Part shown: in pieces, positions 1,426 through 4,574 of the stretch
Layout: every line of letters begins with the position of its first letter
Position numbering within the stretch: position 1 is the stretch's first letter
NCBI RefSeq assembly: GCF_025024155.1
Contig: NW_026251728.1
Location: forward strand, 310,001 to 374,000
Direction of reading: 5' to 3'
Length of the DNA stretch: 64,000 nt
Source: Gamsiella multidivaricata
Taxonomy: Eukaryota; Mortierellomycota; Mortierellomycetes; Mortierellales; Mortierellaceae
Translations under genes and position numbers: made by a program
The notes under the pieces: model-generated
What the model was told of the DNA's origin: nothing
The model's input: the letters and a program-made list of their open reading frames with translations, nothing else
Database searches by the model: none

Positions 1426-1988
1426 CAAAAGAGAAGCTCCCTGGCGGGGAATTGAACCCCGGTCTTCCGCGTGACAGGCGGAGATACTCACCACTATACT
1501 ACCAGGGAATGAGCTTTCTGAAAGGCGATGATCAAGAATATTAATTAAGCAGACTTTTAATTTTCTCTAAGTGCAAGTTACCGTTCTATAAATGCAAGAT
1601 GCCTAAAAATTACGCACCGTTCCTCAATTGCATGACCCCAACTTTATTAACATTGGATCTGGATTAGGAGACGTGTATCGCGCAACAGGTCACGTAGGAG
1701 TTAGGTTAGGCTAGCTATGCGACATGGGTTATGAATTTGACGCCTCAAGCCAACATAGTTGGTAGAGGATGCGGCTCTGCCGTGCATGGAAGGCATCTAT
1801 GGCTTCAAGGCCTTTGCGGACCATGTGTCTCGTGCTCATGTGGCCGTTCCTCAATTGCATGACCCTTACCATCTGGAATTTTATTATAATAATAAAGCTG
1901 AAAGGACTACAAGGGGAAAAGGGTGCGCTCCTGATGAAGGACGGAGTGCTAGTCTCATACTCACTGCAGACCACAATTTCGCACTCGC
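1426..1988. repeat. Left arm of a 563-bp inverted repeat
   Basis: This segment is the reverse complement of 4012-4574. Every pair of matching positions sums to 6000, so there is no insertion or deletion between the arms. Reading both arms side by side I found one mismatch, near the inner end (1983 against 4017). The outer end carries a complete tRNA-Asp gene and its 3' trailer. The rest is A/T-rich non-coding sequence that also contains a 22-bp direct repeat (near 1617 and 1844). No target-site duplication is evident at the outer borders. Confidence 0.93.
1437..1508 (-). tRNA. tRNA-Asp (anticodon GTC)
   Basis: A 72-nt cloverleaf can be folded on the minus strand. It has a 7-bp acceptor stem (TCCCTGG pairing with CCAGGGA), discriminator G, a D-loop B-box-like start, the anticodon GTC at 1475-1473, and a T-arm GGGGTTCAATTCCCC. 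There is no intron and CCA is not encoded, as expected in eukaryotes. This copy is identical to the one at 4492-4563 because both lie at the outer ends of the inverted repeat. The two genes are transcribed away from the spacer in opposite directions. Confidence 0.95.
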
Positions 1989-2160
1989 ATAGACTCGCCG
2001 CAGGAGCGGCAACAGGTCATACTCCCAGCAATTTCCCTCGTTACAAAAAAAAAAAAAAAAAATAGCGCGCGGCATCGTTTTTTGTCACTAACAGTAGGTT
2101 CGCGATTGACATTTTATACGTGCAGGACGATTTTTATTTCAGTTGCTGAAGAGTGGCAAC

Positions 2161-3644
2161 TCAAATGCCCTTAGGGATGGGGCAACGCACAAGTCCTCTA
2201 TCCGAGAACGCAGTTCCCACAAGCATCACACCGCGTTTGCGATCAACTGCAGCCGTAGTGGAAGTCGAGATCAAGTTTCCGTCATCGACCAACACCGTCT
2301 CGACCAGATACTTGGGTGCACCCGAAACGGTGTTCGCCTCTGGGTTCTTGGACATCTTCACGATCTTGGATGGACCGTCAACGGATCTACCTTTTGTATG
2401 AAGGTGCTTAACCATGGTGAGGGGTTGGACATGACCCGCAACAAAAACATCGCCAGTGGCGGGGTCGTAACTGGGGTTGTCGTTATAAAAGTCCAGCTTG
2501 ATGTAGTCTTGAATGATGAGGGAGTGGTCCTCGTTGGGTTGGAGCACATGCATAGCACCGCCGTGGCAGGCGGAGAGGTAGATAAGTGAGCGATCGAGGT
2601 TGGCGGCCATGCCGTTGGCAGTGACAACGTGTTCGTATGCGACAAAAGTCTTTTCGGGCGAGTAGTAGACGACATTACTCCATGGTCGTCGCGAGAATTC
2701 TGATATTGTGCGAAAGAATAAAAAATAAACACGCGTTAATTCCTTGGCAAAAGTGTGTACATGAGAAAGAAAGAGCGAGAAAAAAAATGCGAAACATACC
2801 TTCGATACCCCTCATGATACCGGTTGAATGGCGATGGTCGTTCGAGACGTAGAAGGAGCGAGGTCCCAAGGCGACAATGTCATTAGGAGTTCTGATAAGT
2901 TTGTGCTGGATTGTTTCCTTGTACTGAACGGCCTTGTCGCCGATCCTGTACTCAAGAACCTCGATGACACTTCCTGTACGACGGTGGTTCACAGCAAAGA
3001 TGGTGAGCTCTGTGGGAGAACGCTCATAAATATCAAGTCCGTGGTACACTCTATCGACGTCCGCAGGAAGGCCAACCAACTCCATAACGTTGTACTTCCC
3101 CGACTAAGAGCGAGCGAGCGAGCCATTGAACCCAAAAATGCAGGTGAAGAAAAGGTAAGCCGGATATGCACAATTGACATCAAATAAACAGTTGTGAGAA
3201 GGGTCTTACAGGAATATCATAGACAACAAACTTGTCCTTGAACGCATTCTCGGCTGAGGTATTAACCGGGCCAATGGGAGGGTACCAGCCCTTACGCGAC
3301 TCGGCATGTCCGCAGGTTGTGAAAGCAAGACCCGAGGCATAATGGATGTGAACATCCTCGCAGGCTTCCAGCCCTTGAACAATCTCGCAGCCAGCAGTGT
3401 TGAACGGCTGCACCGTACCGAGAAGGAGTCCTGAGTCGATGATCACGTCCTTGACAAAGTTGTAGCTCAGGGCAGCAACTATCACGGCGATAGCAGCGTT
3501 GATCCTGAAAGTATTGCGCTTCCATGTGGACGACAACGACGAGGCGGTCTTCGTGCCGCTGGAAGACGAGGCCGTGCGGGTGATGGTTGTGGTTGTGGTC
3601 TTGATGACCTTGCTTGTTGGTTGCTTCTTTGGTGAGGTCGCCAT
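2161..3644 (-). CDS. Paraoxonase/arylesterase-like calcium-dependent lactonase
   Basis: Three exons give 425 residues: complement of 2161-2699, 2800-3103 and 3210-3644, with introns of 100 and 106 bp (GTATGT..CAG and GTAAGA..TAG). The start at 3644 (MATSPKK) is chosen because upstream in-frame Mets precede only low-complexity sequence. A single hydrophobic segment (about residues 49-63, NAAIAVIVAALSYNF) should anchor the protein with its six-bladed propeller outside the cytosol. Paraoxonase signatures are all present: an ED pair near residue 96 (ACEDVH), HGLDIY near 166, VNH near 184, TPNDIVALG near 219, TANGM and NDNPSYDPATGD in exon 3. These match the Ca2+ ligands and active-site His residues of animal PON1-3. 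Such enzymes hydrolyse lactones and aryl esters; the fungal substrate is unknown. The gene lies alone between the inverted-repeat arms. Confidence 0.85.
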
Positions 3645-4011
3645 TGCAAGAGACTTGTGGATTGGCAGGAATCGCGAGGACAGAGATGAATGAACGAATG
3701 AGAGCGTGGGATGTGGAGATGAAAGGGTAAAATGCGGGGGGACGCGGAGGTAGATTATTGTCAGTGTGCGTATAATTTCTGCAGTAGACTCTCTTTTCAT
3801 AAGCATGACCACAGAAAAACTTACTGGGCGATCAGCAACTGCCCGATCTTTCGGCTCAGAGGCACTCTCTCAGCCGAGCAACCGATCGACGAGTGCTTCT
3901 CAAAAGGTCCGTGCTTCAATGGCAGTGAACAACCGACTATGCAATTAAAGAGCGATCAATCTTTTTATATCGAGACGGTTGACCCTGCGAATCTACCAGA
4001 CCTATTGGCGA
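3645..4011. promoter_or_regulatory. 5' region of the paraoxonase-like gene (spacer side of the right arm)
   Basis: About 370 bp lie between the chosen ATG and the right repeat arm. The first part is a pyrimidine-rich (on the minus strand) leader typical of a fungal 5' UTR. The remainder holds no convincing gene. A + strand open frame that runs from here into the arm is an accident of the repeat sequence. Promoter function is inferred from position only. Confidence 0.35.
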
Positions 4012-4574
4012 GCGAGCGCGAAATTGTGGTCTGCAGTGAGTATGAGACTAGCACTCCGTCCTTCATCAGGAGCGCACCCTTTTCCCCTTGTAGTCCTTTC
4101 AGCTTTATTATTATAATAAAATTCCAGATGGTAAGGGTCATGCAATTGAGGAACGGCCACATGAGCACGAGACACATGGTCCGCAAAGGCCTTGAAGCCA
4201 TAGATGCCTTCCATGCACGGCAGAGCCGCATCCTCTACCAACTATGTTGGCTTGAGGCGTCAAATTCATAACCCATGTCGCATAGCTAGCCTAACCTAAC
4301 TCCTACGTGACCTGTTGCGCGATACACGTCTCCTAATCCAGATCCAATGTTAATAAAGTTGGGGTCATGCAATTGAGGAACGGTGCGTAATTTTTAGGCA
4401 TCTTGCATTTATAGAACGGTAACTTGCACTTAGAGAAAATTAAAAGTCTGCTTAATTAATATTCTTGATCATCGCCTTTCAGAAAGCTCATTCCCTGGTA
4501 GTATAGTGGTGAGTATCTCCGCCTGTCACGCGGAAGACCGGGGTTCAATTCCCCGCCAGGGAGCTTCTCTTTTG
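4012..4574. repeat. Right arm of the 563-bp inverted repeat
   Basis: This is the inverted copy of 1426-1988, ending outward in the second tRNA-Asp gene. The 2,023-bp spacer between the arms contains only the paraoxonase-like gene. The near identity implies either a very recent duplication or continuing gene conversion between the arms. The arms could pair in a cruciform or support inversion of the spacer. The sequence after the outer end (CGTTTTGC) does not repeat the sequence before the left arm. Confidence 0.93.
4492..4563 (+). tRNA. tRNA-Asp (anticodon GTC), second copy
   Basis: Same 72-nt gene as at 1437-1508, on the + strand, with anticodon GTC at 4525-4527 (tRNA positions 34-36) and no intron. 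The trailer continues as GCTTCTCTTTTG, and a run of about 20 T follows at 4605-4624 that can serve as RNA polymerase III terminator. The left copy lacks such a long T run on its sense strand within the repeat. Confidence 0.95.

Follow-up and report, generated by a model that had tools for sequence, protein, structure and literature searches.

A recent inverted repeat tipped by tRNA-Asp genes in Gamsiella multidivaricata and a LINE-like retrotransposon family on the 5' side of tRNA genes

Inverted repeats that begin at tRNA genes and enclose unrelated genes have been described in budding yeast. On Saccharomyces chromosome XIV the 4.2-kb inverted repeats IRL and IRR, which each start at a tRNA-Ile gene, flank a 24-kb segment that has inverted again and again. 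Three strains carry Ty elements or long terminal repeats (LTRs) 15, 40 or 117 bp upstream of the tRNA-Ile gene in one arm, and inversion and homogenisation were both shown across strains and species (PMC9731477). Judged by its layout, this flip/flop system is the closest precedent for a locus in the early-diverging fungus Gamsiella multidivaricata, in which two 563-bp inverted arms, each ending outward in a tRNA-Asp gene, surround a single gene for an arylesterase/paraoxonase-like protein. The locus lies in a 64,000-nucleotide stretch of contig NW_026251728.1 (positions 310,001 to 374,000, assembly GCF_025024155.1), hereafter called the window, and all coordinates without a contig label refer to it.

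The two systems share near-identical inverted repeats which start at tRNA genes and surround unrelated genes, and a retrotransposon just upstream of the tRNA (in some of the yeast strains). The yeast arms, however, are much longer, carry two protein-coding genes and flank a far larger spacer (PMC9731477), whereas the Gamsiella spacer is 2 kb and the locus is known from one assembly. Template switching produces another related class of structures. Origin-dependent inverted-repeat amplification (ODIRA; PMC10766186), microhomology-mediated break-induced replication (MMBIR; PMC2621351) and fold-back events (PMC3907307) share with the Gamsiella locus an inverted neighbouring copy, sharp junctions and short junction homology. 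ODIRA, however, gives an inverted triplication with palindromic junctions (PMC10766186), whereas the window holds one extra copy and a 2-kb spacer and would at best be a secondary product of it. Neighbouring identical tRNA genes, head-to-head or tail-to-tail, are also found among the clustered same-isotype tRNA genes of eukaryotes, but in a survey of them (PMC2888827) the clusters lie within 1 kb and are mostly parallel, while in Gamsiella four of five young pairs with long matching flanks are antiparallel and stand 0.6 to about 10 kb apart.

The inverted repeat in the window is confirmed as real. A repeat search gives the arms as 1426-1988 (forward strand) and 4012-4574 (reverse strand), 563 nt each, separated by a spacer of 2,023 nt and with positions summing to 6000. 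The printout of that search gives 100% arm identity, a figure that hides a single mismatch seen base by base in blastn (99.822% identity). It is located at 1983, the sixth base from the inner edge, where the left arm has A and the complement of the right arm has G. This is the geometry that a first-pass annotation, made from the letters of the window alone, had read, down to the lone mismatch at the inner edge. In blastn the similarity ends abruptly at both edges and nothing is alike past either of them. The outer edge falls directly after a TTTT run behind tRNA-Asp, and at the inner junction short CTCGC and TCGCC strings are present on both sides. No second inverted repeat of at least 60 bp was reported in the window, and the pair is therefore not due to chance. 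Near-identical inverted copies, abrupt ends and unlike flanks, the marks of a recent local inverted segmental duplication, are all found here, as are two near-identical inverted repeats each starting at a tRNA gene, as in the flip/flop type. This is a genuine and recent structure of a known type: a neighbouring segment duplicated in inverted orientation, perhaps with conversion and inversion as in the yeast flip/flop region.

Both tRNA-Asp (GTC) genes are intact, as had been claimed from the letters, and they read outward. They lie at 1436-1508 on the reverse strand, with the TTTT run just outside at the arm edge, and at 4492-4564 on the forward strand. ARAGORN and Rfam agree on the two sites, with the Rfam calls one base shorter. 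The tRNA-Asp sequence matches eight places in the genome, and no host protein-coding gene was recognised within the arms.

The first reading of the arms needs one correction: in each of them, 205 bp are a piece of a retrotransposon family that is dispersed in the genome. The genome search places this fragment, related to long interspersed nuclear elements (LINEs), at 1639-1843 (forward strand) in the left arm and at 4157-4361 (reverse strand) in the right arm. In both it stops ~12 bp short of the end that other copies have and carries no A-tail, which makes it an atypical insertion. One and the same 22-bp sequence bounds the fragment on both sides in both arms: on the tRNA side at 1617-1638 and 4362-4383, and on the inner side at 1844-1865 and 4135-4156. 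The tRNA-side repeat of the left arm covers the region 109-130 bp upstream of the tRNA. From the similar length of the repeats at other copies, the 22-bp repeats are probably a target-site duplication. Because the insert and its flanking repeats are common to both arms, the retrotransposon insertion preceded the copying of the arms.

In a search with a 675-base query, the 205-bp piece has at least 39 further matches in the genome outside the window (38 of full length and one partial of 147 bp), a lower bound because only 40 of 106 candidates were scored. The first-pass annotation had considered that the arm might prove to be an ordinary repeat family. This holds for the 205-bp part only; the stretches 1509-1638 and 1867-1988 match nothing in the genome but the two arms. 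When the arm insert was compared with 22 other copies, it departed from the commonest letter at five positions, each time with a variant also found in other copies, and none of its 205 positions was private. The absence of private positions suggests that the retrotransposon insertion is itself young.

Elsewhere in the genome the 205-bp piece belongs to a longer element with variable 5' ends. An A-run follows ~12 bp behind the 205-bp core in 24 of 25 copies outside the window. Direct repeats of 18-20 nt that are free of the A-run bound eight of the 25 copies, six have shorter or A-rich repeats, and none were found in 11. The family of the insert thus shows an A-tail, variable 5' truncation and target-site duplications, the features of a non-LTR (LINE) retrotransposon. 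One reading frame of the family (L061:855-3026) contains an RNase H domain in Pfam and has 11 protein matches, other Mortierella proteins among them; no reverse transcriptase domain was seen in this frame, and the copies read are 5'-truncated. The alternative that the 205-bp repeat is a short interspersed nuclear element (SINE) with its own tRNA-like boxes was rejected, since the piece falls within a longer element whose copies are truncated to differing extents.

The placement of this family was compared with a merged list of 182 tRNA-like places among the candidates scored, drawn from Rfam (63 of 1,149 candidates scored, all above the cut-off), the tRNA-Asp sequence and a B-box pattern. The pattern alone supports 111 of these places. 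Control runs with the pattern reversed gave 17 rows where the pattern itself gave 96, and 16 where it gave 78, which indicates that about a fifth of the B-box rows are chance. Of the 39 matches outside the window, 27 have a tRNA-like place within 3 kb, compared with an expected 3.05% (binomial 3e-32, with element copies in duplicated blocks not being independent), and 26 of these 27 are on the 5' side of the tRNA. Among the 12 matches not near a listed tRNA, three on contig C142 adjoin tRNA-Ala genes that ARAGORN detects and the list missed, and two, on C72 and C115, are less than 1 kb away from where their contigs end; around another two, on C1 and C122, the flanks read contain no tRNA.

A similar picture emerges when the tRNA genes are taken as the starting point. 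Across 38 tRNA loci (30 listed by Rfam and eight found by the tRNA-Asp sequence, including the two window genes) with flanks of ~1.5 kb, the element is upstream in 14, downstream in one and not found upstream in 24. The sole downstream element is the same one that counts as the upstream match of a neighbouring tRNA-Lys. The gap between element and tRNA is 127-140 bp in seven of the 14 upstream cases, which represent five loci, two of them duplicated pairs; the window arms belong here with a gap of 130 bp. In loci chosen by the element, 15 of 16 tRNAs have it upstream and one downstream, and four of the gaps are 118-136 bp. At L051, L060 and L061 other repeat copies are situated in the larger gaps. 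The placement is non-random in both side and distance, and the LINE-like family of L043-L062 and the window seems, from these positions, to select targets 5' of tRNA genes, with its nearest edge often ~130 bp away.

Such a preference has parallels in dictyostelids. The TRE5, NLTR-A and NLTR-B elements are non-LTR retrotransposons, some with an RNase H domain, that insert at a preferred distance 5' of tRNA genes (PMC5006619; PMC5911963). They differ from the Gamsiella family in the host kingdom and in the distance, ~50 bp or 2-6 bp there and ~110-130 bp here, the Gamsiella preference being read from genomic positions. In the excerpted text of these sources, upstream tRNA-targeting non-LTR elements are named for dictyostelids, and the tRNA-targeting elements named for fungi are the LTR elements of yeasts; in the table of tRNA-targeting elements in the 2018 review (PMC5911963) the non-LTR rows within that text are all dictyostelid. 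Among the papers listed in literature searches (15 of 83 in one case), titles and the beginnings of abstracts showed no tRNA-targeting non-LTR element in fungi, and for Mortierella non-LTR elements near tRNA genes the one paper found was unrelated.

Two further observations concern the sequence around tRNA genes. Each arm has the motif TGCAYTTA (on either strand) near positions -88 and -67 relative to tRNA-Asp. In the 52 tRNA genes of the fetched loci L009-L038, L043-L070 and L073-L075 it occurs within the upstream 140 bp of 15, whereas two control stretches each have it in one of the 52, a contrast biased by the choice of the motif from the same sequences. TGCAYTTA is a possible candidate for an upstream promoter or binding element. 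Separately, some element copies are equally distant from their tRNA-like place: C57:317252/318397 and C57:340379/341524 (both 941 bp), and C27:74990/76541 and C4:100593/102144 (both 1,347 bp). These pairs suggest that other blocks too were duplicated recently, in one case from one contig to another.

Repeats comparable to that of the window were detected at other tRNA genes. The merged list contains 24 neighbouring pairs within 15 kb, and in eight of them the DNA of both members was read. Two of the eight join different tRNAs (C119, C124) and six join the same tRNA. Besides the window, young inverted pairs are present for tRNA-Thr (C68:57964-69095, L009/L010/L071; 3,751 bp, 99.893% identity), tRNA-Lys (C49:12594-19869, L022/L023/L072; 1,058 bp, 100%) and tRNA-Ile (C103:46236-47192, L073; 375 bp, 100%). 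A tRNA-Met pair on C46 is direct (857 bp, 99.8%), and an older inverted tRNA-Lys pair on C68 retains 77.5% identity over about 320 bp. The spacers of the four young inverted pairs all differ, at 207, 2,023, 3,632 and 5,160 bp. The tRNAs face outward in two of these pairs and inward in two (tRNA-Lys, tRNA-Ile), and they sit near the arm end in the window and C49 pairs, 710 bp inside the arm in the C68 tRNA-Thr pair and mid-arm in the C103 pair. Five of the six same-tRNA neighbours are inverted, a suggestive excess that is not significant (sign test about 0.2). Taken together, the pairs favour repeated inverted duplication of tRNA loci within their neighbourhood, whether or not gene conversion followed, over a special cassette. 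In the 20 loci chosen by the retrotransposon (121,807 bases), the one inverted repeat of at least 300 bp without a tRNA role consists of two retrotransposon copies in L051. Further closely spaced, antiparallel tRNA-like pairs, known by coordinates only, are C7:5656-6699, C148:322155-322446, C108:291752-298542 and C52:7770-17877; the members of the C7 pair are identical over the matched 27 bases.

The locus was probably formed by a retrotransposon insertion at a tRNA-Asp locus, followed by inverted copying of a 563-bp block about 2 kb away. The retrotransposon fragment would have entered the tRNA-Asp locus first, about 110-130 bp upstream of the tRNA, the usual place of its family. The block, made up of the tRNA with its terminator and 480 bp of insert-bearing 5' flank, would then have been copied in inverted orientation, most likely by a template switch at microhomology during replication or repair. 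The CTCGC and TCGCC strings at the inner junction are weakly compatible with such a switch, and the abrupt arm ends argue for a young copy. The outcome would be the two intact outward tRNA-Asp genes with an unrelated enzyme gene between them, the second copy perhaps being retained because an extra tRNA does no harm or brings a benefit. Two such arms could then gene-convert and now and then invert the spacer, but only as a consequence of the duplication.

Several points weigh against this explanation. The evidence comes from one genome. The five young pairs all fall at 99.7-100% identity and the only other pair at 77.5%, and such a missing middle of divergence is also expected under conversion. 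The excess of inverted pairs, five in six, lacks significance, and it derives from the eight of 24 neighbouring pairs that were read on both sides. Inverted repeats free of tRNA genes were counted in the window and the 20 element-chosen loci, which do not form an unbiased genome-wide sample.

The main rival is an older inverted repeat whose arms would have stayed identical through gene conversion, while crossovers now and then flipped the enclosed gene, as happens in the Saccharomyces flip/flop. A precedent of the same layout exists in the tRNA-Ile-tipped, homogenised and recurrently inverting yeast repeats (PMC9731477), and several separate tRNA repeats of the Gamsiella genome all stand at 99.7-100% identity. 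At each arm end, nevertheless, identity of about 100% gives way directly to no similarity, without a partly diverged zone in between, and this history is judged unlikely, though it is the strongest of the alternatives to a recent copy. The first-pass annotation had left the choice between very recent duplication and continuing conversion, and that pair of options is supported. Inversion of the spacer may have occurred under either history; by analogy with yeast, flipping of the enclosed gene is mechanistically reasonable.

Perfect repeats are a known hazard of assembly, and one arm could in principle be a mis-join or an inverted chimera of the other. The outer flanks and the interior are however distinct within one 488-kb contig, the arms differ by one mismatch, comparable structures of varied size and orientation are present at three other tRNA loci, and artefactual palindromes usually have little or no spacer. 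An artefact is thus improbable.

The spacer contains exactly one gene model, in agreement with the first reading. It lies on the reverse strand at 2161-3644 (exons 3644-3210, 3103-2800 and 2699-2161), and the spliced model encodes a protein of 425 aa with a match to Pfam Arylesterase (PF01731; E 9.2e-15). The protein is 100% identical to a hypothetical protein of Gamsiella multidivaricata. Out of 66 protein matches, P0002-P0029 have 57-74% identity, their organisms presumably being Mortierellaceae, and are followed by weaker and non-fungal matches. Within the top matches, those from Dissophora, Modicella, Entomortierella and Mortierella attain 65-74%. The spacer gene is the only close copy found in the genome, beside a distant relative on C124 (32-33% identity). 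The arms reach neither the start (3644) nor the stop (2161) of the gene. The edge of the right arm is 368 bp from the start codon, and the protein has been conserved across the family, which gives the gene the look of a bystander.

A tRNA-bounded cassette had also been proposed; the arms with their terminal tRNAs would then serve the paraoxonase-like gene as a boundary, cruciform or switch. In its favour, the gene is neatly framed, and tRNA genes and B-box inverted repeats can act as chromatin boundaries in fission yeast. The proposal is not supported by the comparison with the other inverted tRNA repeats of the genome, which have other spacers (207, 3,632 and 5,160 bp), do not always carry the tRNA at the tip (tRNA-Thr, tRNA-Ile) or facing outward (the tRNA-Lys and tRNA-Ile pairs are convergent); the enclosed gene is ordinary, and the arm stops short of its start and stop. 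A functional cassette is accordingly about as improbable as an artefact, and a conserved tRNA-paraoxonase cassette was rejected, as other tRNA pairs have other spacers. The cruciform reading is not supported, extrusion across a 2-kb spacer being unlikely. Least probable of all, and rejected, is a transposon with long terminal inverted repeats that carries tRNA genes in its ends and has captured a host gene: long inverted repeats do end the structure around one gene, but comparison of the outer flanks by eye found no target-site duplication, the tested arm stretches outside the retrotransposon and tRNA (1509-1638 and 1867-1988) have no second copy elsewhere in the genome, and the sole gene model in the spacer is an arylesterase.

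A broader picture can be offered tentatively. The tRNA genes of this genome may be the centres of two linked processes, a LINE-like element choosing a site ~110-130 bp upstream and repeated inverted copying of blocks of tRNA plus flank. Breaks or stalled forks at the sites chosen by the element might trigger the copying, which would leave arms able to convert and to flip the genes between them. This linkage is less likely than the order of insertion and copying proposed for the single locus.

The results suggest that tRNA gene number changes through near-identical inverted local copies, several times in one early-diverging fungal genome. They also provide small loci that lend themselves to PCR tests of whether arms bearing tRNA genes convert and invert. 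More novel than the inverted repeat is the adjoining LINE-like family sitting 5' of tRNA genes. The retrotransposon of the window looks like an upstream tRNA-targeting LINE outside dictyostelids, and if this is true, the strategy would have originated independently. The value of the locus lies in being one of several such pairs at tRNA genes in one early-diverging fungus, and a pointer to a retrotransposon that seemingly targets the 5' side of tRNA genes.

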